From contig CALEBT010000006.1 in the NCBI GenBank assembly GCA_937942875.1, forward strand, positions 1 to 64,000: a DNA stretch of 64,000 bases, in the 5' to 3' direction. The stretch is from an uncultured Ignavibacterium sp. GTDB taxonomy: Bacteria; Bacteroidota; Ignavibacteria; Ignavibacteriales; Ignavibacteriaceae. Position numbers and translations under genes: made by a program. Below are positions 1 to 23,554 of this stretch, piece after piece (the stretch's first letter is position 1; every line of letters starts with the position of its first letter). The notes beneath the pieces are model-generated. The model saw only the letters and a program-made list of their open reading frames with translations. It was not told the origin of the DNA and made no database searches.

Positions 1-1
1 A

Positions 2-1240
2 GAACTTGGAAAAGAAAAAGGAATGATTGGCGAAATATTCTTCAAAGCTCAGAATAAAATTCAAGACCCGGCTAAACTTTATAAACTCATTCAACTTATT
101 GATGATGAAAACTGGGTAATACTCGGTGCTGATGTTAAAGGTGATATTTATGAAGGTTTACTTGAGAAGAATGCCGAAGATACAAAATCTGGTGCGGGAC
201 AGTATTTTACTCCACGTGCATTGATAAAAGCAATGGTAGAATGTATAAGACCGGAACCAAAGAAAACAATTGCAGATCCGGCTTGTGGTACAGGAGGATT
301 CTTCCTTTCAGCTTACGATTATATTTCATCTAATTACAAATTAGATAAAAGCGAAAAAGAATTTCTTAAATTCAACACTTTCAGAGGTTGGGAGATTGTT
401 CCGAACACTGCACGATTGTGTTTGATGAATTTATATCTGCACGGAATTGGAGACTTGAACAGTGAACCGCCAATTGAAAGAGCTGATAGTCTGCTTTCAG
501 CACCATCGGAAAAATTTGATTATGTTTTAACAAATCCGCCATTCGGAAAGAAGAGCAGTTTTACAATTACTAATGAAGATGGAACTCAAAGCAAAGAAGC
601 GCTTACCTATGAGAGACAGGATTTCTGGACTACGACATCAAACAAGCAATTGAATTTTGTTCAGCATGTCCGCTCAATGCTTAAAGCTGATGGAAAAGCT
701 GCAGTGGTTGTTCCGGATAATGTTTTATTTGAAGGCGGAGCAGGTGAAACAGTAAGAAAAAGATTATTGGAAACAACGGATCTTCATACAATACTTAGAC
801 TGCCTACAGGAATTTTTTATGCTCAAGGTGTAAAGGCAAATGTAATTTTCTTTGATAATAAGCCTGCTGCAAAAACTCCGTGGACAAAAGAAGTCTGGAT
901 TTACGATCTTCGTACTAATATGCATTATACACTCAAAACTCAGCAGATGAAGTTTGAGGATTTGAAAGACTTTGTTGAATGCTACAATCCTCAAAACAGA
1001 TTCAAAAGAAAAGAGTCCGCCTCGGGCGGAGAACGCTTTAAGAAATTTACTTATGATGAAATTATTTCAAGAGACAAAACCAATCTCGATATATTCTGGC
1101 TCAAAGATGAGGCACTTGGTGATTTGGACAACTTACCTGAGCCGGATGTTATCGCAAATGAAATTATTGAAAATATTGAAGCCGGGCTTGCAAGCTTTAA
1201 GGAAATAGTTGAAGGACTGAATAGGATTGGACAGGATTAA
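2..1240 (+). CDS. hsdM: Type I restriction-modification DNA methylase subunit (HsdM), 5'-truncated by window edge
   Basis: Adenine-N6 methyltransferase subunit of a type I restriction-modification system; it modifies DNA together with a specificity subunit HsdS. The reading frame is open from base 2, so the first internal ATG (base 23) is not the true start and the N-terminal helical domain lies upstream. Visible: GQYFTPR at the start of the catalytic domain, AdoMet motif I DPACGTGGF, and catalytic motif IV NPPFG. The C-terminal tail (KTNLDIFWL, then DVIANEIIENIE) is typical of HsdM. A five-residue SASGG insertion, encoded by a perfect palindrome at 1016-1030, sits before ERFKKFTYDE. No hsdS or hsdR follows downstream; they would have to lie upstream, so completeness of the system cannot be judged. 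Family assignment is firm. Confidence 0.93.
   Translation, partial: ELGKEKGMIGEIFFKAQNKIQDPAKLYKLIQLIDDENWVILGADVKGDIYEGLLEKNAEDTKSGAGQYFTPRALIKAMVECIRPEPKKTIADPACGTGGFFLSAYDYISSNYKLDKSEKEFLKFNTFRGWEIVPNTARLCLMNLYLHGIGDLNSEPPIERADSLLSAPSEKFDYVLTNPPFGKKSSFTITNEDGTQSKEALTYERQDFWTTTSNKQLNFVQHVRSMLKADGKAAVVVPDNVLFEGGAGETVRKRLLETTDLHTILRLPTGIFYAQGVKANVIFFDNKPAAKTPWTKEVWIYDLRTNMHYTLKTQQMKFEDLKDFVECYNPQNRFKRKESASGGERFKKFTYDEIISRDKTNLDIFWLKDEALGDLDNLPEPDVIANEIIENIEAGLASFKEIVEGLNRIGQD
1016..1030 (+). repeat. 15-nt palindromic mini-element inside hsdM
   Basis: TCCGCC-TCG-GGCGGA forms a perfect 6-bp stem with a 3-nt loop. It occupies exactly five codons (S-A-S-G-G) and is locally GC-rich in an AT-rich gene. 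It looks like a short hairpin inserted in frame between a GAG and a GAA codon. Confidence 0.6.
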
Positions 1241-4932: not shown

Positions 4933-6878
4933 CTAAATTGCTGTAAAATTTCATTAACCTTTTGATTCTTCTCTTCCCATTTCTCAAAAAGAATCTGTAA
5001 TTCCTTCTCTAATTCTTTAAGCCGAACAGATATGTTTTTAATCTCAGTCCCGTTTGAATAAAGAGATTGGTCATTAAGTTTTTCTAACAAGGACTTTTGC
5101 TCCTCTTCCAAATCCGCAATCTTATTTTCTAATATCTCAATTTCTTTATTGAGCGACTTTGTTGCCTGATATTTTTTGTTTCTTAATTCAGCTTCAAATC
5201 TTTTTTGTTCTTTGCGGGAGACAGGAATTTCTGATTTTGCTGATTTGATGTTTGAAGTATCATCTTCAACAAATTCAGATGAATGCTTTTCAAGATAATA
5301 ATCAATATTCCCGTTATAAATTTTGATTGTTTTATTACGAACATCAACAATTTTATTAGCAACCGGTCTTAAAAAATCCACATCGTGCGACACAATAACT
5401 AAAGTTCCGGGAAAATCAATCAAAGCTTTCTGAAGAATAAGTTTGGAGTCAATATCGAGGTGGTTTGTTGGTTCATCAAGAACAATCAGATTTGCTTTGG
5501 TAAGGAGAATTTTACACAAAGCCACACGACTTTTTTCACCACCGGAAAGTACACCAACTTTTTTGAAAACATCATCGCCTGAGAATAAAAAAGAACCTAA
5601 AAGTGTTCTTAATTCACCAAGAGATTTTTCTTCGTTTATTCCGGATACTGAATCTATAATATCAAGTTCAGGATCGAGGCTGTCTGCAACGTCCTGTGCA
5701 TAATAAGAAATGAAAGTATTGTGTCCGATAATTCTTTCACCAGATTCGAAGTCAAGCACACCGGAAATTATTTTTGCCAGAGTTGTTTTACCTGCACCAT
5801 TTGGTCCGACAAATGCAATTTTATCTCCTCTTTCGATCAATAAATCAATTTTATCCAAAACAAGTTTATCGCCAAAACTTTTAGATATATTTTTTAATTC
5901 AATTGGAAATCTGCCGCTTTGAACAGGAGAGGGAAATTTGATAGAAATGTTATCTTTAGATTCAGGTATTTCAACCAATTCCATTTTCTCTAATTGTTTT
6001 ATTCTGCTTTGAACTTGTCTTGCTTTTGTCGCTTTGTATCTGAATCTTTCAATAAATCTTTGAGTTTCCTGAATCTTTTTTTGTTGAATTTCAAACTGAT
6101 GGAAAAGTTGAGCATCTCTTTCAGCTTTGTACTTCAGGTAAGCTTCATAATCTCCTTTGAATGAATAAACTTTTCCTAAGAATATCTCTAACGTTTTGTT
6201 GGTAACCTGATTAACAAAGTTTTTATCGTGAGATACTACTACAAGTGCTCCCTGATAAGCCTTTAAAAAGTTTATTAACCAGTTTAGCGAATCAAGATCG
6301 AGATGATTTGTTGGTTCGTCGAGTAACAAAATATCATTTTGAGCTATCAGTATTTTTGCCAGTTTAATTCTCATCTGCCATCCGCCCGAAAAAATATCGG
6401 TCGGCTTATCAAAATCCTCCTCTGAAAAACCTAATCCCAAAAGAATCTTTTCCACTTTTGATGAAGCACTGTAAGAGTCCATATCAAATAGTTTATGATG
6501 TATTTCGCCTAATTGATTAATCAAATCATTTCTTGTCTGTTCATCTAATCCTTTCTCTTCGAGTTTTTTATTTATTTCTTTTTCTTTATTCTGAAGTTCA
6601 ACAATATCAGTTAGAGCTGAGATAGCTTCTTCGAGAAGAGTTTTATTATAATGATAAATCAGTTCCTGCGGAAGATAACCAATAGAAATATTTTTTTGCT
6701 TTTGTACAATTCCTTCTTCAGGTAAAAGTTCGCCTAAGATGATTTTTAATAATGAGGATTTACCGGTTCCATTTGCACCGACTAATGAAATTCTGTCGCC
6801 TGAAGATATTTTATAACTAACTTCGTTAAAAAGGTACTTACCATTAAACTGCAGAGAGATATTAATCAGGTCAATCAT
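4929..6878 (-). CDS. ABC-F family ATP-binding protein
   Basis: Cytoplasmic protein with two ABC ATPase domains and no membrane part. Family members act on the ribosome (translation factors, ribosome protection). 649 residues. First Walker A GANGTGKSS (about residue 35), signature FSGGWQMR, Walker B ILLLDEPTNHLDLDS. Then a long charged linker, and a second Walker A GPNGAGKTT with LSGGEKSR and LDEPTNHLDIDS. The C-terminus is a coiled coil (NKEIEILENKIADLEEEQ), as in Uup/YheS-type members. Which ABC-F subgroup it is, or whether it confers drug resistance, cannot be said. Confidence 0.93.
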   Translation of the reverse strand: MIDLINISLQFNGKYLFNEVSYKISSGDRISLVGANGTGKSSLLKIILGELLPEEGIVQKQKNISIGYLPQELIYHYNKTLLEEAISALTDIVELQNKEKEINKKLEEKGLDEQTRNDLINQLGEIHHKLFDMDSYSASSKVEKILLGLGFSEEDFDKPTDIFSGGWQMRIKLAKILIAQNDILLLDEPTNHLDLDSLNWLINFLKAYQGALVVVSHDKNFVNQVTNKTLEIFLGKVYSFKGDYEAYLKYKAERDAQLFHQFEIQQKKIQETQRFIERFRYKATKARQVQSRIKQLEKMELVEIPESKDNISIKFPSPVQSGRFPIELKNISKSFGDKLVLDKIDLLIERGDKIAFVGPNGAGKTTLAKIISGVLDFESGERIIGHNTFISYYAQDVADSLDPELDIIDSVSGINEEKSLGELRTLLGSFLFSGDDVFKKVGVLSGGEKSRVALCKILLTKANLIVLDEPTNHLDIDSKLILQKALIDFPGTLVIVSHDVDFLRPVANKIVDVRNKTIKIYNGNIDYYLEKHSSEFVEDDTSNIKSAKSEIPVSRKEQKRFEAELRNKKYQATKSLNKEIEILENKIADLEEEQKSLLEKLNDQSLYSNGTEIKNISVRLKELEKELQILFEKWEEKNQKVNEILQQFS

Positions 6879-6883
6879 TTAAC

Positions 6884-9118
6884 TTATTTTCTGATTACTG
6901 CAACTTTTCCAATCTCAATATTATTTGCATCTTTATCTGAAGCAATGATGAGGTAAATTCCGCTGCTTACTAAGTTTTGGTCATCATCCTTACCATCCCA
7001 GTAAGCAACTCTTCCTCCAGGTGTTTCGAGTTTTCTTACAAGATTGCCAGAAGCCGAAAGAATCTTTATTTCACTGTCTCGAACAAGACCATCAATAGTT
7101 ATTAATTGTGCTCCGTCCTGAATAACAAAGGGATTGGGATAAATAAATAATCCATCAAATTTATCTTTTGGTTTGATTGCAGGTGTTTCAAAAACATTCA
7201 ATCCAAGGAAAGTTCCGACGTAAACTCTTCCTGTTTTTTCGTCAATTGTCAGACTTTCAATTCTATCATCAAGTAAAGGAGAATTTTTTGAATTTAATGT
7301 TGCAAGAACTCGCGAACCATCTGAGTTAACTAATAATAATCCCTCAGCAGTGGCAATCCATTTTTGATTTAAAGGATCGACTGCAATTGCCTTAACACTT
7401 TGCTGTCTCAAAGAAAAAACTGAGGTTATCCTGAGTTGTGGATTAGCTAAATTTACTATAGTTGATGTATTGGAAATAATGTTAACACCTCTGCTACTGC
7501 CAACCCAGATATCTCCTCGTTTATCAACTTTAATATCAGAAATATCAGTACTGTTTAATCCAGTACTTTCAGTGATTAAACCGCTTTTATCATCAGCCGT
7601 GTTGTTAAAAGTCTTATTTTCATTGAAGTAAAAAAGACCTTTCAGACTCTGAGCATCAAGTGAGACATACCACTTTGTATCATATTGATCAATAACAAGA
7701 TTTTGTAATTTGTTAATTATTCGCCCCTGACCAGCCGGAACTTTAAATAGATACCAACTGCTATCGGGCGTTAACAATGCGAGAGGATTTCCATCTCCTG
7801 CCCAGTGATTTAATATCCATAGATTATTTTTAGAATCATTCGCTAATCCCGTTATTACTAAAAAATTAGTATCAATCGGAATTCCTACCATAGGAGTATT
7901 AGCAACATCAAAACGTGTAATTACAGAGTTATTAATTCTTGCAAATCCGGAGCCCCAGCTGCCTGTATAAGTTCTTCCATCATTTCCTGAATAGACAGAA
8001 TAATAATCATCTGTAAGAAGAACTGGCGTGTTCAGTCGGTTGAAATTGTTCCAGATTTTACCATCGAATTTCATAATACCTTTCCCGGTTCCATCTTTTC
8101 CTGTCGCAACCCATAAATTCCCATTATTATCCACAGACATATTAGCAAATTGATTGGCGTTAGGTCCGTTTGGTAATAACAATGAGTTATCTTTTAGCAG
8201 TAATATACCTTTGTTACTTGAAGCAGCAACATCATAATTTGGACTAAAAGAAATTTTTTTTAATTCTATTTCTGATGAGTAAAGATTAGTTAAGTTGTTT
8301 TCGCTAAACTGATAAATTTTATTTGAAGATAGAATAAAAAGTTTATTCTGAACAACTTCAATATCATTGACAGAGATGTTTGTAAATTCATTCAGAAATC
8401 TTTCCCAGCTTTGCGTTGAAGGTAAATATCTGTATAAACCTCTGTTTGTTGCAATAATTATTTCATTATTAAAAAAAGCAAGATCAAATACTCTTGTTAC
8501 GCCTATAGCATTGTTTGTAAATACATCCCAGGATTCCGGAGCTGAAAGATTAGTTGCGTTTTGCTTTTGTATTGCTATGCCATCATCAGTTATTGCATAG
8601 ACTTTGCTGAAATAAAATACCTTATTAACTTTTTGATTAGATGGAAGTGTACCAAGTTTAAAGTAAGAATCATAAAAGAAAAAGTTGGTTGAATTTATTA
8701 AGGATATTCCATAATCAGTTGCGACAAAAATGGTATCACCTTTTACAAAAAAATAGTTTATACCTTTATTGGTTTTATCTGAATTGTAAATATCACTGAT
8801 ATAAGAAAATTTTTTCGTTGAGGGGTTTAAAACATCAATCGTACCCGATTTGCTGCCGAACCATATTTTACCGCCAAGATCAATTGTGACAGCATTTAAA
8901 TCAGTTCCTAATAAACCTTCAGCCTTTGCAAAAGTATTATAATTACTCTCTGAAAGATTATATTCAAAAGCACCACCACTTGAAGCAGACCAAATTCTAT
9001 TGTTGCCGAAAATAAAATCCCGAATATCTTTTAAGTCCGAATAATTTTGCCAATTTGATGCACTCTGAGCATTTACCATTAAAGTAAGTATAAGAAGAGA
9101 AAAGATTATTTTTTTCAT
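6884..9118 (-). CDS. porZ: PorZ-like beta-propeller protein with type IX secretion C-terminal domain
   Basis: 744-residue exported protein. The signal peptide (MKKIIFSLLILTLMVNAQS) is followed by two-component-regulator-type propeller repeats (IWSASSGGAFEYNL, KIWFGSKSGTIDVL, IFVATDYGISLI). The C-terminal domain carries LFIYPNPF and ends VSSGIYLIIASDKDANNIEI, a T9SS type A sorting or FlgD-like fold. This layout (WxxY start, two propellers, C-terminal domain) fits PorZ, a surface component that in Porphyromonas helps the sortase PorU attach anionic lipopolysaccharide to T9SS cargo. It lies 5 bp upstream of the ABC-F gene. The orthology is inferred from domain layout and local similarity only. 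Confidence 0.75.
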   Translation of the reverse strand: MKKIIFSLLILTLMVNAQSASNWQNYSDLKDIRDFIFGNNRIWSASSGGAFEYNLSESNYNTFAKAEGLLGTDLNAVTIDLGGKIWFGSKSGTIDVLNPSTKKFSYISDIYNSDKTNKGINYFFVKGDTIFVATDYGISLINSTNFFFYDSYFKLGTLPSNQKVNKVFYFSKVYAITDDGIAIQKQNATNLSAPESWDVFTNNAIGVTRVFDLAFFNNEIIIATNRGLYRYLPSTQSWERFLNEFTNISVNDIEVVQNKLFILSSNKIYQFSENNLTNLYSSEIELKKISFSPNYDVAASSNKGILLLKDNSLLLPNGPNANQFANMSVDNNGNLWVATGKDGTGKGIMKFDGKIWNNFNRLNTPVLLTDDYYSVYSGNDGRTYTGSWGSGFARINNSVITRFDVANTPMVGIPIDTNFLVITGLANDSKNNLWILNHWAGDGNPLALLTPDSSWYLFKVPAGQGRIINKLQNLVIDQYDTKWYVSLDAQSLKGLFYFNENKTFNNTADDKSGLITESTGLNSTDISDIKVDKRGDIWVGSSRGVNIISNTSTIVNLANPQLRITSVFSLRQQSVKAIAVDPLNQKWIATAEGLLLVNSDGSRVLATLNSKNSPLLDDRIESLTIDEKTGRVYVGTFLGLNVFETPAIKPKDKFDGLFIYPNPFVIQDGAQLITIDGLVRDSEIKILSASGNLVRKLETPGGRVAYWDGKDDDQNLVSSGIYLIIASDKDANNIEIGKVAVIRK

Positions 9119-11387: not shown

Positions 11388-12380
11388 GTGGATAAAAAAA
11401 ATAACAATTTCGCTCAGTTATATCAGCGAGAAAGAAATAAGGTTAATAAAAAACTTGCCGAGGTTCTAAAAAACCGTAAACCGGAATCTTTGTATAAACC
11501 TTCCGATTATATCCTAAGTAACAGTGGTAAAAGATTACGACCAATACTTGTTCTTTTCTCTGCAAAAGCTGTTAATGGTAATATGAATTCTGTATTTAAT
11601 GCTGCTCTCGCTGTAGAGATGCTACATAATTTTACTCTGATTCACGATGATATAATGGATAACGCTGACCTTAGAAGGGGGAAGAAAACCTTACACAAAC
11701 TTTATGATTTAAACACTGCAATTCTTGCCGGAGATAGTTTACTATCAATTGCTTATGAATATTTACTCAAAGATTGTAGAGTTAACCCCAGAGAAGCAGT
11801 AGCAGCATTTACAGAAGGATTAATCGAAGTTTGTGAGGGACAAAGCCTTGATACTGAATTCGAAAAAAGAAAAGATGTTAGTCTCAACGAGTATCTTATT
11901 ATGATTGAGAAGAAAACTGCTGCATTAGCAAAAATGTGTTGTAAACTTGGAGCAATATTATCTGATGCAAAAAGTTCAGACATCAAAGCATTATCTGATT
12001 ATGGATTAAACCTCGGAATTGCTTTTCAAATTCAGGATGATTTGTTAGACATAATGGGAGAGGAAAAAGACTTCGGAAAGACAGTTGGTGGAGATTTGGT
12101 GGCTGGCAAAAAAACTTTCTTGTTTATTAAAGCTTTCGAAAAAGCAAAAGGAAAGCACAGAAATGAATTATTAAAAATGATAAAGAATAAAGGTATAAAT
12201 CCTGATAAAGTTGATTACTTCAAGCAAATGTTTATTGAACTGGGTGTGATTGAAGACGCCAGAAAAGAAATAAAAGGGTACACTGAAAAAGCATTAAAAT
12301 CAATTAATAGACTTTCTAACAAAAGAGAAATTACTTTTTTTCATTGGCTCGCAGATTCTCTTATTGAAAGAAATAAATGA
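11388..12380 (+). CDS. Trans-polyprenyl diphosphate synthase
   Basis: Chain-elongating prenyltransferase that condenses isopentenyl diphosphate units, for quinone side chains or other isoprenoids. 330 residues with a GTG start at 11388; an AGGA lies a few bases upstream. The two Asp-rich motifs are HDDIMDNADLRRG (first, DDxxD) and QDDLLDIMG (second). GGKRL-type substrate binding is seen as NSGKRLRP. Product chain length cannot be fixed from sequence; length and overall sequence fit the octa/hepta-prenyl group. Its stop overlaps the HPr start by 4 nt, tying it to the PTS genes. Confidence 0.93.
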   Translation: MDKKNNNFAQLYQRERNKVNKKLAEVLKNRKPESLYKPSDYILSNSGKRLRPILVLFSAKAVNGNMNSVFNAALAVEMLHNFTLIHDDIMDNADLRRGKKTLHKLYDLNTAILAGDSLLSIAYEYLLKDCRVNPREAVAAFTEGLIEVCEGQSLDTEFEKRKDVSLNEYLIMIEKKTAALAKMCCKLGAILSDAKSSDIKALSDYGLNLGIAFQIQDDLLDIMGEEKDFGKTVGGDLVAGKKTFLFIKAFEKAKGKHRNELLKMIKNKGINPDKVDYFKQMFIELGVIEDARKEIKGYTEKALKSINRLSNKREITFFHWLADSLIERNK

Positions 12381-12646
12381 TGATAGAAAAAAAAGTTAAA
12401 ATTGTAAACAAAGCCGGGCTTCACACCAGACCTGCTGCCAATATCGTTAAAATGGCTGCAAAATATAAATGTGATTTTTTTATCGATCGTGACGGAATGG
12501 AAATAAATGGGAAAAGTATTATTGGAGTGATGACACTTGCTGCTGAAATGGGCTCAGAACTGATTCTAAGGTTTGATGGTTCAGATGAAAATGCCGCTGC
12601 TGAAGAAATTGTATCATATTTTGAAAGGGGATTTGACGAACAATGA
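12377..12646 (+). CDS. ptsH: Phosphocarrier protein HPr
   Basis: Small phosphocarrier of the PEP-dependent phosphotransferase system, phosphorylated by enzyme I on the His of GLHTRPA (about residue 16). A regulatory serine is present in NGKSIIGVMTLAA (about residue 47), the site used by HPr kinase in organisms that have it. 89 residues, normal length. It overlaps its neighbours by 4 nt on both sides (12377-12380 and 12643-12646), a tightly coupled operon with the polyprenyl synthase and enzyme I. No sugar-specific EII gene is in the window. Confidence 0.95.
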   Translation: MMIEKKVKIVNKAGLHTRPAANIVKMAAKYKCDFFIDRDGMEINGKSIIGVMTLAAEMGSELILRFDGSDENAAAEEIVSYFERGFDEQ

Positions 12647-14409
12647 AATCTTTTAAGGAAATTATTTCTAAAGCTAACAATAAAATTGCGGGAATTGCCG
12701 CTGCTCCGGGAATTATAATCGGGAAATCTTATCTTTTCACAAAAGAGAAGATTGAAATCTCAAAAAGCCCTATAAATGATATTGATGAAGCTCTGAAAAA
12801 TTTTGAAGAAGCCCTTGCTCTTTCAAAAAAGGAATTAAATAAAATTTTCAATATCGCCAGAGAAAAAATGGATGAAATGAGAGCAGCAATTTTTGAAGCA
12901 CATTTAATGATTCTTGATGATGAAATTTTATTGAAGTCTATTCGAAAAAGAATTGCTGAGGAAAAAGTTCAACCTGAATATATTGTCGCAACAGAAATAT
13001 CAAAATATCAGCAAATAATGGTTCAGTCTTCAGAATATTATATGAAAGAACGAGCACAGGATATTGAAGATATTAAGAACAGGATTATTCGAAACCTTCA
13101 GAAAAAAAGATGGCAGTCCAAAATTGAAAAAGACGTTATCGTAATCAGTGAATCTTTAACTCCTGCTGATACATTACTTTTTACAAAAAGCGAAACTAAG
13201 GGTTTTGTAACTGATCACGGTGGATTAACTTCTCACGCAGCAATAATATCAAGATCTTTTAACATTCCTGCTGTTGTTGGGACACATAATGCTACTCAAA
13301 TTATCAAAGACGGAGAATTAGTAATTGTTGATGGCTTTCACGGATATGTTTTCTATAATCCAACTGAAGAACAAATAAAATTCTATTCTGAAAAACAAAA
13401 GAAACTATTAGAACTTCAGAAAGGATTGGAGGAATATAAAGATAAAGATGCGATTACTACCGATGGAAAGAAAATAAATGTTGAAGCAAATGTAGATGTA
13501 ACTGGTGAAATTGACTTGGTAATTTCAGCAGGAGCAAACGGAATTGGTCTTTATCGTTCAGAGCAATTATTGGATGAGATTGGAGGTTTTCCCAGCGAAG
13601 ACGAACAAACCATAATCTATTCAAAACTTGCTTCAAGAGTTTATCCTTTAATTTGCACAATAAGAGCTTTTGATGTTGGTGGGGATAAATTTAAGTTTCA
13701 GGATTACAAAGAGCCTAATCCATTCTTGGGTTTAAGAGGTATAAGATTTTTGCTCGATAATCAAAATCTTTTCAAACAACAGATCAGGGCGGTTTTAAGA
13801 GCAAGCGTTCATAAGAACATTAAATTTATGATTCCGATGGTTTCGACTTTGGATGAATTGTGGAAAACAAAAAAAATAATTGACGACTGCAAAAAAGATC
13901 TTAGAAAAGATAAGATTCATTTTGATTCAAAAATGAAAATAGGAATAATGGTTGAAGTTCCGTCAACTGCAGTAATGTCTAAAGATTTTGCAAGCGAAGT
14001 TGATTTTTTCAGCATTGGCACGAATGACTTGATTCAATACCTAATGGCTGTTGACAGAGGGAATGATTTAGTTGCAGATTTATATCAGGAGTTCAGCCCG
14101 GTTGTTTTAAGAACCATTCATCATATTGTGCAGGGAGCAAAAGAATTTGATACTCCTGTTAGTCTTTGCGGCGAAATGGCTGCCGATACTCTCGCAATTC
14201 CACTTCTTGTTGGATTGGGACTTGATTCCATAAGTATGTCTCCCGCAACAATACTTTATGCAAAAAGAATTATCAATTCATTCTCATACAAAAAAGCAAA
14301 AGCAATGGCAGAAGAGTGCCTACAAATGAAAACTGAAAAAGAAATTCAGCAAAGAATTCTGAAATTCTTTGAAGAAAATAATATTTCCAGAACAAGAAAC
14401 ATCATCTGA
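12643..14409 (+). CDS. ptsI: Phosphoenolpyruvate-protein phosphotransferase (PTS enzyme I)
   Basis: Autophosphorylates with PEP and passes the phosphate to HPr. 588 residues. The N-terminal HPr-binding domain is followed by the swivelling His domain, with the active histidine in GGLTSHAAIISR (about residue 200). The PEP-binding TIM barrel contains GANGIGLYRSE, IRAFDVGGDK, GLRGIRF, DFFSIGTNDLIQY and the catalytic Cys in VSLCGEMA. All key residues are present, so it should be active. It is coupled to ptsH. Without linked EII genes the role may be regulatory or serve a remote transporter. Confidence 0.96.
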   Translation: MKSFKEIISKANNKIAGIAAAPGIIIGKSYLFTKEKIEISKSPINDIDEALKNFEEALALSKKELNKIFNIAREKMDEMRAAIFEAHLMILDDEILLKSIRKRIAEEKVQPEYIVATEISKYQQIMVQSSEYYMKERAQDIEDIKNRIIRNLQKKRWQSKIEKDVIVISESLTPADTLLFTKSETKGFVTDHGGLTSHAAIISRSFNIPAVVGTHNATQIIKDGELVIVDGFHGYVFYNPTEEQIKFYSEKQKKLLELQKGLEEYKDKDAITTDGKKINVEANVDVTGEIDLVISAGANGIGLYRSEQLLDEIGGFPSEDEQTIIYSKLASRVYPLICTIRAFDVGGDKFKFQDYKEPNPFLGLRGIRFLLDNQNLFKQQIRAVLRASVHKNIKFMIPMVSTLDELWKTKKIIDDCKKDLRKDKIHFDSKMKIGIMVEVPSTAVMSKDFASEVDFFSIGTNDLIQYLMAVDRGNDLVADLYQEFSPVVLRTIHHIVQGAKEFDTPVSLCGEMAADTLAIPLLVGLGLDSISMSPATILYAKRIINSFSYKKAKAMAEECLQMKTEKEIQQRILKFFEENNISRTRNII

Positions 14410-14415
14410 TAAATT

Positions 14416-15459
14416 ATGTTGTCAATCAAAGATTTCGTGTCAAAATACGACCCTCAAAATCAATTTGAGGTACTAAAAAATTCTTACAAGCAAATTGAAT
14501 TTGCAATTTCTAATTCTTATCCAAAATTTGATTTTAACATTGATGAAATAAACTGCATAGTAATTAGTGGACTTGGTGGCTCTGCCATAGCCGGAGATTT
14601 AATCAAAAATTTTCTTAAAGATGAATTGAAAATTCCGGTTTTGGTTAATCGGAATTATAATCTCCCAAAATTTGCAGATGAGAAAACACTAATTATTTGC
14701 TCTTCTTATTCCGGAAATACTGAAGAGACTATATCTGTTTTTAATGAAGCACTTAAAAGAAATTGTAAAATAATTTGTATTTCTACAGGTGGTGAATTAG
14801 AAAAAATTACAGCTTTTAATAATATCCCAATCATAAGCCTGCAAAAAGGTTTTCAACCGAGATTTGCTTTAGGACTTAGCTTCACAACTTTACTGATTCT
14901 TTTTTCTAAATTAAACCTAATTCCAAATCAGGATGAAGTTATAGCTCAGATAATTTCTTTATGGAAAAAACGTGCATCAGAGTTTTCCTCTGAAGGAAGC
15001 TTTCCTTTAGAGATTGCTAAAAATCTCATCGGCTTTATTCCAATTATTTATTCAGTAAGTGATTTTAATAACTCTGTCGGAATGAGATTCAAAGCCCAGT
15101 TAAATGAGAACTCAAAACTTCACGCTTTTCATAATGAACTTCCAGAGATGAATCATAATGAAATAATTGGTTGGGAAAGTCACAAACAGAAAAATATTCA
15201 CGCAAAAGTAATATTTCTTTATGACGAAGAAATTCATCCACAGATCAAAAAACGCTTTGAAATCATAGCCCCGATGATCAAATCATCAGATGTCGAAATT
15301 ATTACACTGAAAAGTTCTGAGGAAAATTTTAAAATGAGAATAATGGATTTAATCTATTTGACAGATTGGGTAAGTTATTACCTTGCAGTTTTAAGACAAT
15401 TTGATCCAAGCGAAATAGATTTCATTCATATTCTCAAAAATAAATTATCAGAATCTTAG
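14416..15459 (+). CDS. Bifunctional phosphoglucose/phosphomannose isomerase
   Basis: Cytoplasmic SIS-domain isomerase interconverting glucose-6-P or mannose-6-P with fructose-6-P. 347 residues. The first SIS fold has GLGGSAIAGDLI and SYSGNTEETIS. The C-terminal half has NELPEMNHNEIIGW, the family motif with catalytic Glu and His. This matches the archaeal/Crenarchaeota-like PGI/PMI group also found in many bacteria. It starts 6 bp after ptsI and its stop shares one base with the GTG start of the next gene, so it bridges the PTS genes and the envelope trio. Confidence 0.92.
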   Translation: MLSIKDFVSKYDPQNQFEVLKNSYKQIEFAISNSYPKFDFNIDEINCIVISGLGGSAIAGDLIKNFLKDELKIPVLVNRNYNLPKFADEKTLIICSSYSGNTEETISVFNEALKRNCKIICISTGGELEKITAFNNIPIISLQKGFQPRFALGLSFTTLLILFSKLNLIPNQDEVIAQIISLWKKRASEFSSEGSFPLEIAKNLIGFIPIIYSVSDFNNSVGMRFKAQLNENSKLHAFHNELPEMNHNEIIGWESHKQKNIHAKVIFLYDEEIHPQIKKRFEIIAPMIKSSDVEIITLKSSEENFKMRIMDLIYLTDWVSYYLAVLRQFDPSEIDFIHILKNKLSES

Positions 15460-18287
15460 TGAATTATAAATTCAGCTTCATTAAATTTTATTTTGTATTT
15501 CTCTTTGTTTCATTTACCTCAGTAACCTATAGCCAATACTATTTCTTTGGAAGAAACAAAGTGCAGTATGAAAATTTCGATTGGAAAATTATTCGCACCA
15601 ATCACTTTAATATTTATTATTACGGAGACGTTGAAAAAATTGCAGAAATCGGTGCTGCTTATGCTGAAGATGCTTATGAAGAACTGAAGATAAGATTAAA
15701 TCACGTTGTCACAAGAAAAATTCCTTTGGTTTTCTATAATACTTCTCTTCATTTTCAACAAACGAATATAACTCCCGGACTAATACCTGAAGGTGTTGGC
15801 GGATTTTTTGAATTTTTAAAGGGCAGAGTTGTTCTTCCTTCAAATGGCTCTTTAAATGAATTCAAACACGTAATCAGACACGAACTTGTTCACGTATTTA
15901 TGACGAATAAAATTTACCGAGTTCTCAAAGACCATCGTCTTCCGACTGATGTTATGCCGCCTCTTTGGTTTGTTGAAGGATTAGCTGAGTATCTTTCAAC
16001 AGAAGTTGATGCCCAGGCTGAAATGGTTATGAGAGATGCTGTAATAAATAATTACTTTACCGGACTAAAGGATTTTCCAAAAATTTATGGCACTTACATA
16101 ATGTATAAAGCTGGTCAGAACTTTTTAGAGTTTCTCGATAAAAAATACGGTGCTGATAAAATTCCAATGTTACTTGAAAATTTCTGGATGTTCACAAAGT
16201 TTGATGATGTTTTAGAACATACTCTCGGACAATCAATCGATCAAATAGATATAGAATGGCAATATGAACTTAAAAAGAAATATTATCCGCTCCTTGCTGA
16301 TAAAAAGCCACAGGAAGTCGGCTCAAAAAAAATAACGAATTCTGGTTTTAACTTTTCACCGGTTCATTATCAGAAGGGAGATAGCAGTTTCATTTATTTT
16401 AATGGTAACAGAGATGGTTATTCATCAATATATAAATTGATACTTAATTCTGATAATGGAGAATATCCTAAAGTAAATTTGGTTATTAAAGGCGAACAAA
16501 CTGATCAGCTTGAGTCATTTCATTTATTCCAGTCTTCAATAGATATAAATAAAAATGGAATTCTTACATTTGTTACTAAGTCAGGTGCAACAGATGTAAT
16601 TCATTTTTTTGATATAAAAACAAATCAGATTAAAAAGACTTTTCAGCGAGATAATCTGATAGCAATAACTTCTCCCAAATTTTCTAAAGATGGAAATCGA
16701 ATTGTTTTTCAGGCAGTAGATAATAAAGGTTACAGTGATTTGTATTTATATTTTTTAGAAACTGATTCATTACTAAGACTTACAAATGATTATTACGATG
16801 ACCGGGATCCCTCCTTTGGTTTTTCTGATGAAGATTGTATAATATTTTCATCGGACAGAACTGCAGGAAAATACCAGGGCAAGTACAACCTGTTCATATT
16901 AGATATAATATCTCGTGAAATAAGATATGTCACTTATGCAAATGCAAATTTTTATAATCCAATTCTTTCTTCATCAGAGGAATTTTTAATCTTTACTTCG
17001 GATTTAGATACTGTTAGAAATATCTGGAAACAAAATATCACTAATAAAAAATTCAGTAAGACAATTCATCAGATATCAGATTTTTATACAAGCGCTTTCG
17101 ACCCAAGATTTATTGATGATTCAACTTTAACATTTACAGGTTTTCAGAATTTCTCCTTTCAGATTTATCAAAAGAAAATTCCACCTGATTCTGAATTAAA
17201 AAAATCACTTCAAATGGAAACATTTTTGGCAAAAGGAAGGTGGATACCTAATTTAATTTCTAAGCGTGGGGAATTCGAAAAATTAGAATACGAACGAGAA
17301 TATTCAGTAGATTATGCTCAAAGCGTAGTTGCAACAGATCCTGTCTATGGAACGCGTGGCGGAGGTATTTTAACTATAAGCGATTTGTTAGCAAATGACC
17401 AATATTATATTTTACTTTACAATACTGCAGAAGTTCAGAGTGATTTTCTCAAAAGTTTCAACCTATCTTTAACAAGAATCAATCTCGAAAAACGTGTAAA
17501 CTTTGGATATGGAATATTTCATTTCAATGGAAGAAGATATGATATAAGAGAATCAGATACTTACTTCTATGAAAAAAGTTATGGTGGTGTATTCTTATTA
17601 AGCTATCCTCTTTCAAAGTTTCATAGAATTGAAGCATCAACTTCAATTGCTGATACAGAAAGGGAAATAGTAGAAGGAATTTCAGAAAGAAAAGCTTTTA
17701 TTCTGAGTAATTCCATTTCACTCGTCCACGATAATTCGCTTTGGATTACTTCAGGTCCTGTTGATGGTACGCGTTGGTTGATGCTTATGGGATATACTAC
17801 TGATATTAAATACAGCAATGTAAATTATTACAGTTTGATAGTTGATTACCGGCAGTATATAAGATTAGATTTACGAACTGCTTTAGCATTCAGAGCTGCA
17901 ATTTTTTATAATGACGGGAAAGATGCCCGCAGATATTTTATGGGAGGAAGTTGGGATTTACGTGGCTGGAATCGTTGGTCAATTCGTGGTGAGAAAATGT
18001 GGCTTTCTTCTCTTGAACTGAGATTTCCACTTATTGATGAGCTTTATATAAAATTCCCGATTCTTAATTTGGGATTCAATGGAATTCGCGCTGCAACTTT
18101 TTTTGATGTCGGAAGTGCCTGGGATAAGGAATACAAAACAACTTATGGAAGTGTTGGTTTTGGTTTTAGATTTAATCTCTGGAATGTTCTTATACTTAGA
18201 TACGATATTGGGAAAAAGATCGAAAAACATTTTACAAAGCTTCAACCGGGTTTGTTTTATCAGTTTTTCTTTGGATGGGATTTTTGA
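15459..18287 (+). CDS. Exported metalloprotease / beta-propeller / Omp85-type barrel fusion
   Basis: 942 residues with a GTG start whose first base is the last base of the upstream stop; the signal peptide ends near residue 25 (VTYSQ). The N-terminal domain has a gluzincin metalloprotease signature: HELVH at 141-145 and a downstream acidic motif WFVEGLAEY (about 170-178), so both zinc-ligand motifs are intact. The middle (about 290-570) has TolB/WD40-like propeller repeats (SSDRTAGKYQGKYNLFILDI, PSFGFSDEDCIIF). The C-terminus (about 620-942) has a bacterial surface antigen/Omp85 barrel pattern (FMGGSWDLRGW and FDVGSAWD). I infer an outer-membrane protein with a periplasmic or surface protease. 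No frameshift is visible across the joins. The function is unknown. Confidence 0.8.
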   Translation: MNYKFSFIKFYFVFLFVSFTSVTYSQYYFFGRNKVQYENFDWKIIRTNHFNIYYYGDVEKIAEIGAAYAEDAYEELKIRLNHVVTRKIPLVFYNTSLHFQQTNITPGLIPEGVGGFFEFLKGRVVLPSNGSLNEFKHVIRHELVHVFMTNKIYRVLKDHRLPTDVMPPLWFVEGLAEYLSTEVDAQAEMVMRDAVINNYFTGLKDFPKIYGTYIMYKAGQNFLEFLDKKYGADKIPMLLENFWMFTKFDDVLEHTLGQSIDQIDIEWQYELKKKYYPLLADKKPQEVGSKKITNSGFNFSPVHYQKGDSSFIYFNGNRDGYSSIYKLILNSDNGEYPKVNLVIKGEQTDQLESFHLFQSSIDINKNGILTFVTKSGATDVIHFFDIKTNQIKKTFQRDNLIAITSPKFSKDGNRIVFQAVDNKGYSDLYLYFLETDSLLRLTNDYYDDRDPSFGFSDEDCIIFSSDRTAGKYQGKYNLFILDIISREIRYVTYANANFYNPILSSSEEFLIFTSDLDTVRNIWKQNITNKKFSKTIHQISDFYTSAFDPRFIDDSTLTFTGFQNFSFQIYQKKIPPDSELKKSLQMETFLAKGRWIPNLISKRGEFEKLEYEREYSVDYAQSVVATDPVYGTRGGGILTISDLLANDQYYILLYNTAEVQSDFLKSFNLSLTRINLEKRVNFGYGIFHFNGRRYDIRESDTYFYEKSYGGVFLLSYPLSKFHRIEASTSIADTEREIVEGISERKAFILSNSISLVHDNSLWITSGPVDGTRWLMLMGYTTDIKYSNVNYYSLIVDYRQYIRLDLRTALAFRAAIFYNDGKDARRYFMGGSWDLRGWNRWSIRGEKMWLSSLELRFPLIDELYIKFPILNLGFNGIRAATFFDVGSAWDKEYKTTYGSVGFGFRFNLWNVLILRYDIGKKIEKHFTKLQPGLFYQFFFGWDF

Positions 18288-19414
18288 AAAAGTTTTTTTA
18301 CATATTATCATTTTTTTTAATTTCAGCTTGCTCTGCTTCATTAATCAAGTTGAATGTTAAACCGCCTGAAACTCTTCATCCGGTTTTTGGAACAACAAGT
18401 CATAGAAGTTTTTATTATCCGGTTAATCTATCTGACAGTCTGAAATTTTTATGGCAGGCAAGCACTTACGGTGGATTTAATAATTCCTCTTTAGTAGTTT
18501 ATGACTCATTATTGTTCCTCGGTGAATTAGCCGGAAGAGTCTATTCCTTCGATATGAATACTGGTAAACAACTTGGAGTTATCAAAACAAAAGGAGCAAT
18601 TTTTTCTACACCTTTGCTAACTAATTTCAGGATTTATTATCCTTTAGTTAAAAAAGAGAAAAAACTTACAGAGATTATTGTTTATGATTTTTACTCAGGT
18701 AAGGAAGTTTATATAATTGAAGTTGAGGACCGAATTACAAACCAAATTATGTATGATAATGATGGAATTTATTTGACAGCGGAAGACGGAACGATTTATA
18801 AATACTCTTTGGAAATGAAACCTATTTGGAAAACAGAAACTAATCAAAATATTTACTGCGTACCAGCTTTATTTGAAGATTTTATTTTCATCGGAAATGA
18901 AATAGGTGAGATAATAAAATTAGATAAATTTTTCGGCAGAATAGTTAAAAGGGAAAAGATATCATCAGGTTTTATGTCTGGAATTACTGCGGAGAAAGAA
19001 GCAATTTTTATCGGAGATAATGATGGAAATTTGTTTTCAATCAATCCGGTAAACCTGAATATAAACTTTAATGTCAAAACAGGTTCAAAAATTTTGATGA
19101 ATCCGGCTTGTGATCTGAGGAATATTTTCGTCGGGAATCTGAAAGGTGATTTGTTAAGTATAAATAAAGTGGATGGAAAAATAAATTGGTCAAAAAATTA
19201 TAAGGGTTTATTTAATTCAACTCCGATAATTAGTTCGAATAAATTGATTGTCCCGGATTCTTTCAAAACTTATTGGATTTTGGATAAAAACGATGGAAGA
19301 GTGGTTAAAAAATTGGAATTAGAAGGGAGAGCAAAATTGTCTCCTGTTTTAATTGATAGAAAACTTTTTATTGGTTATGATGATGGAATTCTGGAGGCTT
19401 ATGAGTTTTATTAA
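18275..19414 (+). CDS. BamB-like PQQ-repeat propeller lipoprotein
   Basis: 379 residues. A lipoprotein signal (MGFLKKFFYILSFFLISAC) precedes a beta-propeller of PQQ/BamB-type blades, each with a short hydrophobic strand, D/N-G turn and W or Y (LFLGELAGRVYSFDMNTGK, GIYLTAEDGTIYKYSLE, IFIGDNDGNLFSINP). BamB itself is a lipoprotein that helps insert outer-membrane barrels. Here the neighbour is an Omp85-like fusion, so a role beside it is attractive but unproven. It overlaps that gene by 13 nt. Its end overlaps the PEGA gene by 14 nt. Confidence 0.8.
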   Translation: MGFLKKFFYILSFFLISACSASLIKLNVKPPETLHPVFGTTSHRSFYYPVNLSDSLKFLWQASTYGGFNNSSLVVYDSLLFLGELAGRVYSFDMNTGKQLGVIKTKGAIFSTPLLTNFRIYYPLVKKEKKLTEIIVYDFYSGKEVYIIEVEDRITNQIMYDNDGIYLTAEDGTIYKYSLEMKPIWKTETNQNIYCVPALFEDFIFIGNEIGEIIKLDKFFGRIVKREKISSGFMSGITAEKEAIFIGDNDGNLFSINPVNLNINFNVKTGSKILMNPACDLRNIFVGNLKGDLLSINKVDGKINWSKNYKGLFNSTPIISSNKLIVPDSFKTYWILDKNDGRVVKKLELEGRAKLSPVLIDRKLFIGYDDGILEAYEFY

Positions 19415-20039
19415 ATCATTCATTATGGCATTGGTTTTAATATCAATGATTTTTTCACAGGATTGTAAACCTGTTTTAATAATAAAAAGTGACTTTGAAC
19501 TGGTTAACATTTTTATTAACGATTCTCTTGTATCAAACAATGGTCAATTCACTGGTGAACTGACTAAAGGTACTTACATAATTATTGCTGACGAGGTTAG
19601 TGATCGCTGGAATTCAAAAACATTTGTGGATACTTTATTTATAAATGATTGTAATAATAGAGAACTTTTGTTTTTCTTCAGATCAGCAACATTTAATTCG
19701 GAATTTGACAGGAATAATGATGGATATCATTTTCAAAAGAAATATTATCTCTCCGATTCTGCCTATGAAGAATTGGATTTGAAAATCCCTAATCCTGTAA
19801 AAAAAGAAAAATTTGTTGATTCAAATCTTTTCAGAATATTAACAGGGACAGCAATAATTTTTGGTGGATTAACCGCTTACTACAAGATAAAGGCTGATAA
19901 ATTATTTGATGAATATTTATCTGTCAGAGATAAGGAAAAACTTGATCAAACCCGAAAATATGATTTAGTTAGTGGGATTACTCTTACTGCCTTTCAGATA
20001 AATTTTGGATATATATTATTGAGATTTTTGATGGAATGA
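19401..20039 (+). CDS. Exported PEGA-domain protein with C-terminal membrane segments
   Basis: 212 residues. I chose the ATG at 19401 because GGAGG lies at 19393-19397 and a signal peptide follows (MSFIKSFIMALVLISMIFSQ). Longer in-frame starts lie inside the upstream gene. Residues about 22-90 form a PEGA-like beta-sandwich (VNIFINDSLV, then QFTGELTKGTYIIIADE). Two hydrophobic segments near the C-terminus (TGTAIIFGGLTAYYKI and TLTAFQINFGYILLRF) suggest membrane insertion. Last gene of the envelope set; a stem-loop follows at 20041-20072. Confidence 0.7.
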   Translation: MSFIKSFIMALVLISMIFSQDCKPVLIIKSDFELVNIFINDSLVSNNGQFTGELTKGTYIIIADEVSDRWNSKTFVDTLFINDCNNRELLFFFRSATFNSEFDRNNDGYHFQKKYYLSDSAYEELDLKIPNPVKKEKFVDSNLFRILTGTAIIFGGLTAYYKIKADKLFDEYLSVRDKEKLDQTRKYDLVSGITLTAFQINFGYILLRFLME

Positions 20040-20298: not shown

Positions 20299-21333
20299 TT
20301 ACAGTCCTTTTCTTAAAAATTTTGGCTCTTCAAGAGTGAGAATAATTGAGATTCTGTGTGAATCTGGTAATCTTTCAATTTCAGATTGGCTGAAACGAGC
20401 AAATGAATAATCTATGTTAAGTTTTGGAAGTTTTACTCCAGCACCAATTGTAAATTGATTAACATCATTGTAACCACCACGAACATAAATCAAATTTCTA
20501 AAAGAATATTCTAACCCGGCGTGCATATCAAAACTGACCGGACCGAGATTGAACTGTGAAGCAAATCTTCTATTTTCAAAACGAATATCAAAATCTAATG
20601 CCGGCATTACATAACCACCAAGAAATTCAGTAATAATGTAAGAACCACCAACCTTTAAAGTTGGAGAAACAAGTTCATTACGTCCAGTGCTCCAGGCAAT
20701 TAATGTTGTGGTAGCATCTTGCAGATTTGCTCCAAGATATAAATTTTCCATCGGTGAATAATAAGCTCCAATATCAAAGCCAATTCCTGTTGCTCCTTCT
20801 TCAGCAATACTTCTGCGGATAATTTTTGCATTAACGCCCCAGTAAAAATTTTCTGAATATCTTTTTGCAAAAGTCAGATAAAATGCCCAATCCTGATTTG
20901 AAAACTCTGTGATCTTTGAATAATCCAATCTATCATCTCTGATATCTATAATACCGTCACCGTTTGCATCGTATAAAGCTTTCCTTGTATCGTGAATTCC
21001 ATCAACACCTATTCTGAAAGCACTTATTCCAAAGCTCATATCTGTATCATAGGGAATTGCGACTGCACCATAATCGTAATTGACTAACGAGCCAAACTGT
21101 TCAGCGTGCATTAAAGCAACCTGAGGATAGTTAAGATTTGCTAAACCAGCTGGGTTATAGTATCCTGCAGTAACATCATTGGCAATTCCAGTAAACGCAC
21201 CTCCCATTCCAATTGCTCTTCCACCCACTCCCAATGCCATAAACTCACCTGCATATTTTGCAATTACAGTTTGTGCGTTAATATTTCCTGTTACTACTAA
21301 AAACAAAGCTGTAAAAAACGCTTTTTTTATCAT
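20299..21333 (-). CDS. PorV/PorQ-like outer-membrane barrel (UPF0164)
   Basis: 344 residues. The signal peptide (MIKKAFFTALFLVVTGNINAQ) leads into AKYAGEFMALGVGGRAIGMGGAFTG and GYYNPAGLANLNYPQV, the hallmark start of the PorV/FadL-like UPF0164 family. The rest has amphipathic beta strands and ends in a basic tail rather than an aromatic residue. PorV serves as an outer-membrane shuttle for T9SS cargo, and this window encodes T9SS cargo, but many paralogues exist and this one may be a generic member. The asp-rich loop DANGDGIIDIRDD is unusual for such a barrel and looks like a calcium-binding turn. Confidence 0.8.
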   Translation of the reverse strand: MIKKAFFTALFLVVTGNINAQTVIAKYAGEFMALGVGGRAIGMGGAFTGIANDVTAGYYNPAGLANLNYPQVALMHAEQFGSLVNYDYGAVAIPYDTDMSFGISAFRIGVDGIHDTRKALYDANGDGIIDIRDDRLDYSKITEFSNQDWAFYLTFAKRYSENFYWGVNAKIIRRSIAEEGATGIGFDIGAYYSPMENLYLGANLQDATTTLIAWSTGRNELVSPTLKVGGSYIITEFLGGYVMPALDFDIRFENRRFASQFNLGPVSFDMHAGLEYSFRNLIYVRGGYNDVNQFTIGAGVKLPKLNIDYSFARFSQSEIERLPDSHRISIILTLEEPKFLRKGL

Positions 21334-21667: not shown

Positions 21668-23554
21668 ATGAAATACCTTTCTTTTTTCATTGCTATTTTT
21701 TTAACAACCGGTTTTGCTCAGTATCAAAATATCAGAGTTGATAGTCCAGGCAGTAATCAACCTGAAGAAGTATCAATTGCAATTAACCCTAAAAACCCCA
21801 ACTATCTTGCTGCCGGTGCAAACATAAATCATTTTTTCCGTTCAAGTAATGGAGGACAATCCTGGACTACATCTTATCTTACATCTTCATTTGGTGTTTG
21901 GGGCGATCCTTGTGTTGTTTATGATGAGCAGGGATATCTTTATTACGGACATTTATCAAATCCACCTTTCCCTGGATATTGGATAGACAGAATTGTAATT
22001 CAACGCTCGACAGATAATGGAGCAACTTGGAATGACGGAGCAGGGATTGGATTTTTATCACCCAAAAATCAGGATAAAGAATGGATTGCAGTTGATATGC
22101 ATAGCCCACAATTCAAAGGAAATATCTATGTAACATGGACAGAATTTGACAATTACGGAAGCAGTAATCCTAATGATTCCTCAAGAATAAAATTTTCCCG
22201 TTCAACTGATAAAGGTTTAACCTGGAGCAATGCAATTACTATCAGCGATAGGAGCGGCGATTGTATTGACAGTGATAACACTGTTGAAGGTGCAGTTCCT
22301 TGTGTCGGTCCCAATGGTGAAATTTATGTTAGTTGGGCTGGTCCTCTCGGACTTATGTTTGATAAATCTACAAACGGAGGATTAACCTGGGGAAATGATA
22401 AATTTGTTTCGAATATTCCGGGTGGATGGGATTTTAATGTTTCGGGAATTTATAGATGTAACGGACTTCCAATTACTGCCTGCGATACAAGTCAATCTCC
22501 CTTTAGAGGCAATATTTATATCAATTGGTCAGATCAAAGAAACGGCTCAACTAATACAGATGTATTTTTTGTTCGTTCAACTGATGGAGGTAATACGTGG
22601 AGCCAGCCTTTGAAAGTTAATGATGATAATTCCAATCGTCATCAGTTCTTTACTTGGATGACTATTGATCAAACAACTGGAGCAATTTATATTGTGTTTT
22701 ACGATAGAAGAAACACAACAGGAAATCTGACTGATGTTTATGTAGCCCGCTCTTTAGATGGCGGTCAATCTTTTTTGAATTTTAAGGTAAGTCAATCATC
22801 ATTTACTCCGTCATCTAACATTTTCTTTGGTGATTATACAAACATTGCTGCATTCAATAAAAAAGTTTATCCAATCTGGATGAGAATGGATGGAACAACT
22901 TTGACTGTTTGGACTGCAATCATAAATGATTCTCTCGCTTATATCCCTGTGGAATTTGCTTCGTTCAATTATTCAATTTCTGATAACTCAGTTTTATTAA
23001 ATTGGGTTACTTCATCAGAATTAAATAATTATGGATTTGAAGTTGAACGCTCATCTTTTGAGAATAATTTTCAACAAACTAAGTGGGAGAAAATTGGATT
23101 CATAAAGGGCAAAGGAACAACAAATGAAAAAAATTATTACTCATTTATTGATAAACCTAGTACTTCAGGAATGTATTATTATAGATTAAAACAATTGGAT
23201 TTAAATGGTGACTTTAAATATTCTGATATAGTTGAAGTTAATTATGGATTGATTAATTCATATAAACTTGAACAAAACTACCCGAACCCTTTTAACTCTA
23301 AAACAATCATTTCCTACAAATTGAAAGACAAAGGATATGTAAAGTTGATGGTATATGATATAAAAGGGGAGCGGATAGCAGTATTGGTAAATGAAGAAAA
23401 AGAAGCGGGATATTATGAAGTAGATTTCCCATCTGTAGAGATGGAGCACACCCCGCCTCTACCAAGCGGGATATACCTATATAGAATCGAAGTGTTAAGA
23501 GAAGGAAATATTCCTGTATATACAGAGATGAGGAAGATGGTTCTTGTTAAATGA
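21668..23554 (+). CDS. Secreted Asp-box propeller protein with T9SS type A sorting domain
   Basis: 628 residues with a signal peptide (MKYLSFFIAIFLTTGFAQ). A sialidase-like six-bladed propeller (about 20-430) carries repeated Asp-boxes: SSNGGQSW, STDNGATW, STDKGLTW, STNGGLTW, STDGGNTW. I do not see the full catalytic set of a sialidase, so a carbohydrate-binding or other exo-hydrolase role is equally possible. A linker beta-domain (SDNSVLLNWVTSSELNNYGF) precedes the C-terminal sorting signal NYPNPFNSKTIISYKL, ending SGIYLYRIEV and a basic tail. The protein should cross the outer membrane by T9SS and be attached to the surface or released. Confidence 0.85.
   Translation: MKYLSFFIAIFLTTGFAQYQNIRVDSPGSNQPEEVSIAINPKNPNYLAAGANINHFFRSSNGGQSWTTSYLTSSFGVWGDPCVVYDEQGYLYYGHLSNPPFPGYWIDRIVIQRSTDNGATWNDGAGIGFLSPKNQDKEWIAVDMHSPQFKGNIYVTWTEFDNYGSSNPNDSSRIKFSRSTDKGLTWSNAITISDRSGDCIDSDNTVEGAVPCVGPNGEIYVSWAGPLGLMFDKSTNGGLTWGNDKFVSNIPGGWDFNVSGIYRCNGLPITACDTSQSPFRGNIYINWSDQRNGSTNTDVFFVRSTDGGNTWSQPLKVNDDNSNRHQFFTWMTIDQTTGAIYIVFYDRRNTTGNLTDVYVARSLDGGQSFLNFKVSQSSFTPSSNIFFGDYTNIAAFNKKVYPIWMRMDGTTLTVWTAIINDSLAYIPVEFASFNYSISDNSVLLNWVTSSELNNYGFEVERSSFENNFQQTKWEKIGFIKGKGTTNEKNYYSFIDKPSTSGMYYYRLKQLDLNGDFKYSDIVEVNYGLINSYKLEQNYPNPFNSKTIISYKLKDKGYVKLMVYDIKGERIAVLVNEEKEAGYYEVDFPSVEMEHTPPLPSGIYLYRIEVLREGNIPVYTEMRKMVLVK

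Follow-up and report, generated by a model that had tools for sequence, protein, structure and literature searches.

Omp85 proteins are known both as insertases and as translocators, and the N-terminal domains of their barrels, as in BamA and TamA, face the periplasm. In the WD40-Omp85 subfamily a TolB-like propeller stands before the Omp85 barrel, an arrangement that has been likened to a BamA-BamB fusion (Heinz & Lithgow 2014, PMC4104836), while the 'Metallo' class has been set apart as a separate class carrying PF00149 (PMC4104836). PlpD is a patatin-Omp85 protein whose passenger was once thought to be secreted and was later shown to remain periplasmic (PMC11116518). BepA, a periplasmic zinc metallopeptidase, steers LptD at the BAM complex either to maturation or to degradation (PMC8423444). 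The published BAM complex of F. johnsoniae contains no subunit resembling the protein described below (PMC12611786).

Results

Domains and overall structure of PPO

The stretch of DNA analysed here (the window) is 64,000 nucleotides long and belongs to an assembly that is 71% complete. One of its genes had been read in an initial annotation as encoding a single 942-residue chain of three domains, and this was borne out by Pfam, NCBIfam, AlphaFold2 and fold matches to TolB and BamA. In its product, an outer-membrane protein, a zinc protease that seems intact is combined with a propeller like TolB and a barrel of the BamA type (metallopeptidase-propeller-Omp85 barrel protein, PPO; Table 1). The start of the gene and the stop of the preceding isomerase gene have one base in common, and Q26 of the protein is invariant across the aligned family members.

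Structure prediction, which had been proposed as a check on the domains, gave a good model of the whole protein (mean pLDDT 82.3, with 77 relatives in the alignment). In this model, a signal helix at the N-terminus is followed by the peptidase domain (residues 40-280), which is mainly helical, then by a propeller (290-580) and a barrel of 16 strands (619-941). When PPO was compared with its two nearest relatives, dN/dS was about 0.05-0.06 for the whole protein, about 0.04 for the peptidase domain, 0.07-0.12 for the propeller and 0.02-0.04 for the barrel, all values being approximate with synonymous sites close to saturation. A chance assembly or an annotation artefact is ruled out by this low dN/dS together with about 80 full-length relatives.

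Table 1. Features of the PPO locus, with positions in the window
Feature	Position	Residues	Strand	Remarks
Polyprenyl synthetase	11388-12380		+	Conserved upstream gene
PtsI	12643-14409		+	Conserved upstream gene
Phosphoglucose/phosphomannose isomerase	14416-15459		+	Conserved upstream gene
PPO gene	15459..18287		+	GTG start, 942 aa
Signal peptide, without lipobox	15459..15536	1-26	+	Hydrophobic N-terminus, modelled helix 2-18; putative cleavage site
Gluzincin-type peptidase domain	15576..16298	~40-280	+	Peptidase_MA_2; pLDDT 86.5 when folded alone
HELVH zinc motif	15879..15893	141-145	+	H141, E142, H145 in 78/78 relatives
WFVEGLAEY, presumed third zinc ligand E173	15966..15992	170-178	+	E173, G174 in 78/78 relatives
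TolB-like beta-propeller	16326..17198	~290-580	+	NCBIfam, PDB sequence search, fold match
16-strand Omp85/BamA-type barrel	17304..18284	~616-942	+	PF01103, model, fold match; C-terminal QFFFGWDF
Omp85 L6 motif GGSWDLRGW	17943..17969	829-837	+	Between strands 11 and 12 of the model
BamB-like PQQ-propeller protein	18275..19414		+	Predicted lipoprotein (LISAC, Cys19); adjoins PPO in 76/80 loci
Secreted protein of no known family	19353..20039		+	Third in the conserved unit; probable true start near 19401

The peptidase domain and its zinc site

Pfam Peptidase_MA_2 matches residues 89-271 with 31.3 bits in the full-length protein, slightly below the cut-off of 32.4, and with 34.9 bits, above this cut-off, when the peptidase domain is scanned by itself. 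The same family was matched by all 80 aligned members, and weak matches to M9, M61 and BSP were seen in many. The sequence profile of the domain matched solved structures weakly, a bacterial collagenase scoring best (E 0.15). PPO carries the gluzincin signature, an HExxH motif with a downstream glutamate in a WxxEGxAE segment. The claim that this site is intact held throughout: the five residues listed for the two zinc motifs in Table 1 are invariant in the aligned relatives, which share 46-86% identity, and the zinc ligand positions are also intact in 8 further proteins of the window's clade that were taken from genome-search loci. Because the zinc ligands are retained in every one of the 78 aligned relatives, proteolysis looks functional in this clade.

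The propeller and the barrel

The middle of PPO was identified as TolB by NCBIfam (residues 369-537, E 1.8e-17, under the equivalog cut-off) and by a PDB sequence search, with a weak Pfam match to PD40. Against the PDB, the modelled propeller matched TolB with a Z-score of about 26 (2.3 Å over 242 residues). For the barrel, Pfam Omp85 (PF01103) covers residues 664-924 with an E-value of 2.3e-12, above the cut-off, and the modelled fold matched BamA of D. radiodurans (Z 24.8, 3.7 Å over 307 residues) and TamA (Z 23.1). The LRGW-like motif noted initially proved to be the L6 motif of Omp85 proteins, with LRGW at residues 834-837 and with G829, G830, W832, D833 and R835 invariant in the family. 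Both features by which the Omp85 superfamily is recognised, a BamA-type 16-strand barrel and an L6 (V/L)RG(F/Y/W) motif, are present in PPO. An hhalign comparison of the family profile with the single BamA sequence from the same genome was weak (prob. 1.2), yet it paired RGW with RGY; the kinship of the barrel to BamA was decided by fold comparison and not by hhalign.

The chain ends in GWDF in 77 of the 78 relatives, the final residue being aromatic. That this ending is kept merely through the overlap with the start of the next gene is ruled out, as GWDF persists where the overlap is absent. A search for POTRA domains in PPO gave no Pfam match and no POTRA-like elements in the AlphaFold2 model, and the roughly 35 residues that link the propeller to the barrel are too few to hold one.

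Gene neighbourhood

The order polyprenyl synthetase, PtsI, phosphoglucose/phosphomannose isomerase, PPO, BamB-like protein and third gene is kept across 80 PPO loci, mostly from Ignavibacteria. Among these loci, the BamB-like gene was found in 76, PtsI in 67, the isomerase in 61 and the synthetase in 55; contig ends explain many of the missing cases. The BamB-like gene also lies directly 3' of PPO in all 7 loci from other families. Its ATG falls within the final codons of PPO, and the resulting 13-bp overlap, present in the window and in most loci, suggests that the two genes are translationally coupled. A strict lipobox occurs in the BamB-like protein of 45 of 74 loci, with a near match in many others. 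No BamB-like gene was found within the short flanks of the b, d or zinc-dead members described below.

Just downstream of the PPO unit, the window also encodes a PorV2-like type IX secretion protein (20299-21333, minus strand), near which lies the gene for a BNR-repeat protein that carries a T9SS sorting tail (21668-23554, plus strand). PorV2 is not conserved next to PPO in the relatives.

Distribution and paralogues

The PPO family is old and widespread in Bacteroidota and is not an isolated fusion. A homologue scan returned 118 relatives, the best 80 of which are nearly all full length and 46-86% identical. A survey across the phylum, also proposed at the outset, covered 395 genomes (Bacteroidota in the GTDB sense) and found full-length proteins of the window's type (a) in about 90 of them. 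The same scan revealed a second, larger set matching mainly in the peptidase domain and the propeller. These proteins, paralogue b, are full length as well (1040-1200 aa), and the hhalign alignment of a with b spans 883 columns and takes in most of the barrel (E 3e-139). At E <= 1e-20, the b profile matched in 193 of 296 genomes and in 121 of 139 genera, a count that takes in related branches too; a few large families are without a match. A third active branch, d (VLGHELVHSFQY), is found in some families, and in the tree a, d and active b each form one side of a branch.

Paralogue b adjoins RNase R in 23 of the 33 loci that reach far enough. Its placement in a TAM operon was considered and dropped: the upstream neighbour is RNase R, and in a genome from the same genus the large AsmA/TamB-looking ORF that precedes RNase R and b (L115, 56-3811) has no Pfam match.

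Contig 30 of the window's own genome encodes a third protein built on the PPO plan (L137, 982-4098); it is distant and has HEFTH, a propeller and a C-terminus that looks barrel-like but shows no clear RG motif. In one assembly a gene of the window's type is split into three open pieces (L071, ~6000-8813), representing either a broken copy or assembly errors. Plasmid searches for relatives gave matches from Salinibacter and Acaryochloris only; on the Salinibacter ruber plasmid pSR116, a peptidase-propeller protein of about 633 aa without a barrel is annotated as 'basic secretory protein-like' (L211, 4917-6818).

Branches that have lost the zinc site

Eighteen proteins, belonging to families f17, f25, f34, f37, f38 and f45, no longer have the HExxH motif, and most of them lack the third glutamate as well. 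A nineteenth relative of this set (L206, f36) has a sequence that is cut off before the zinc site. The full set comprises L145-L149, L182, L185-L188, L196, L198-L200 and L202-L206, and the counts of active and zinc-dead proteins refer to selected loci rather than to a full census. As 16 of the 18 fall into one supported clade while the two from f17 stand apart, the zinc site would have been lost at least once and perhaps twice. An RG(F/Y/H) motif is present in the L6 region of the barrel in all 19, as found by a motif search in the C-terminal part and not column by column. Judged by their sequences, these relatives are predicted pseudoprotease outer-membrane proteins, in which the architecture appears to have survived without catalysis and the barrel, with its L6 motif, to have outlasted the protease. 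Since the zinc site was lost while the barrel motif stayed, proteolysis would not be the core function everywhere in the family.

Discussion

We tentatively favour the reading, to which we give a little less than an even chance, that PPO is an outer-membrane-anchored, periplasm-facing zinc protease that works with the BamB-like lipoprotein on envelope proteins. Seated in the outer membrane, the Omp85-type barrel would keep both the N-terminal peptidase domain and the propeller in the periplasm, and the propeller would presumably bind clients or partners. A likely partner is the BamB-like lipoprotein encoded next to PPO, which is probably located at the inner face of this membrane. Cleavage by the peptidase would take place close to the membrane, as cleavage by BepA does at the BAM complex of E. 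coli, and the target may be a particular envelope protein or one that has misfolded. In proposing a topology, a partnership, an activity and a substrate, this reading builds on the anatomy of PPO, the constraint on its zinc site and the gene pair. PPO probably works on the periplasmic side because this is the known topology of Omp85 barrels and the placement found for PlpD. The window's genome encodes M48 proteases, so PPO is not the sole candidate for an envelope-protease task, and a role for it as a replacement of missing M48 proteases is ruled out.

PPO might instead be primarily an assembly factor, its barrel inserting or folding outer-membrane clients, its propeller and the BamB-like lipoprotein serving for docking, and its protease being an accessory that removes failed clients. 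The L6 motif in a 16-strand BamA-type barrel, the TolB-like propeller and the neighbouring BamB-like gene all fit such a role, but PPO lacks a POTRA between propeller and barrel, and to our knowledge all Omp85 proteins with demonstrated insertase function have POTRAs. In addition, the genome also encodes BamA itself and a second Omp85 protein resembling BamA, and PlpD exemplifies an Omp85 barrel that can function with no insertase activity known for it (PMC11116518). We regard this role as possible though rather doubtful, and it keeps that much weight because of the zinc-dead branch, whose 19 members retain an L6-type RG motif, HExxH being gone. A further reading is a single-chain triage machine, in which the Omp85 barrel would still bind or insert clients, the propeller would act as its own receptor and the on-board zinc protease would destroy the failures. 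The occurrence of an active paralogue across much of Bacteroidota, and of related branches that have the barrel but lost the protease, forms the context for this idea, which we think unlikely.

The initial annotation had suggested a self-processing assembly or a protease-secretion device, in which the barrel would export its own N-terminal protease or the protease would cut the linker to release itself. Some Omp85/TpsB proteins do translocate proteins (PMC4104836), and an intact protease is present on the same chain. However, the N-termini of Omp85 barrels are periplasmic, as was shown for PlpD, the closest analogue that has been studied, when the analogous claim was overturned (PMC11116518), and this makes export or self-release less likely. 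The aromatic C-terminus and an L6 motif placed as in the periplasm-facing BamA and TamA also speak against the suggestion. Furthermore, export would require the barrel to let through a folded peptidase and propeller of some 550 residues, the linker (residues 581-610) is poorly conserved in the family alignment, and a non-systematic look at the alignment revealed no conserved release site. The suggestion was thus not supported, and we consider it improbable. Least probable by far is that the domain is an inactive protease remnant with a structural role only, an outcome that the annotation had also foreseen. It would apply to other branches of the family, two of which contain the 18 checked proteins without HExxH, but not to the window's clade, which has all four ligand positions in 78 of 78 relatives and 8 more.

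If PPO is the periplasm-facing protease that we favour, it would point to a quality-control or processing step for outer-membrane proteins in Bacteroidota beyond the published BAM complexes, with the BamB-like lipoprotein as a concrete candidate partner. A phylum-wide barrel-protease family that occurs naturally in active and zinc-dead versions should allow its essential part to be tested.

Comparison with known systems

The open-licence PMC literature yielded no description of proteins that combine a gluzincin, a propeller and an Omp85 barrel, nor of their paralogues across the phylum, the BamB-like partner gene or the zinc-dead branch. BamM of the F. johnsoniae BAM complex, described as 'metal ion-containing', is ruled out as a relative of PPO, being a calcium lipoprotein of the PPI fold (PMC12611786). 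Canonical Omp85 proteins of the BamA/TamA type have at least one POTRA before the barrel, and PPO has none. The 'Metallo' subfamily resembles PPO in placing a metal-dependent enzyme domain before an Omp85 barrel; it has, however, PF00149, a calcineurin-type metallophosphatase family, instead of a gluzincin, and a propeller is not mentioned for it. PlpD likewise combines an N-terminal enzyme domain with an Omp85 barrel and is anchored in the outer membrane with its enzyme in the periplasm, but its enzyme is a lipase-like patatin domain, and it has a POTRA, forms homodimers and lacks a propeller. BepA, as a periplasmic HExxH zinc peptidase that acts on an outer-membrane protein, has the role proposed here for PPO, although it is a separate M48 protein working on a BamA-containing complex, without a barrel of its own. 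PPO shares a BamA-type barrel with BamA/BamB and with the Bacteroidota BAM complex (BamADGH; PMC12611786), and a gene for a BamB-like propeller lipoprotein adjoins it; unlike them, it has no POTRA and carries the peptidase and the TolB-like propeller fused to the barrel. The nearest published kind is WD40-Omp85, which, like PPO, has a TolB-like propeller directly before the Omp85 barrel and no POTRA; that subfamily was described without a metallopeptidase domain, in a paper that nowhere uses the word peptidase (PMC4104836), and it is as a three-part protein that we found PPO to be undescribed.
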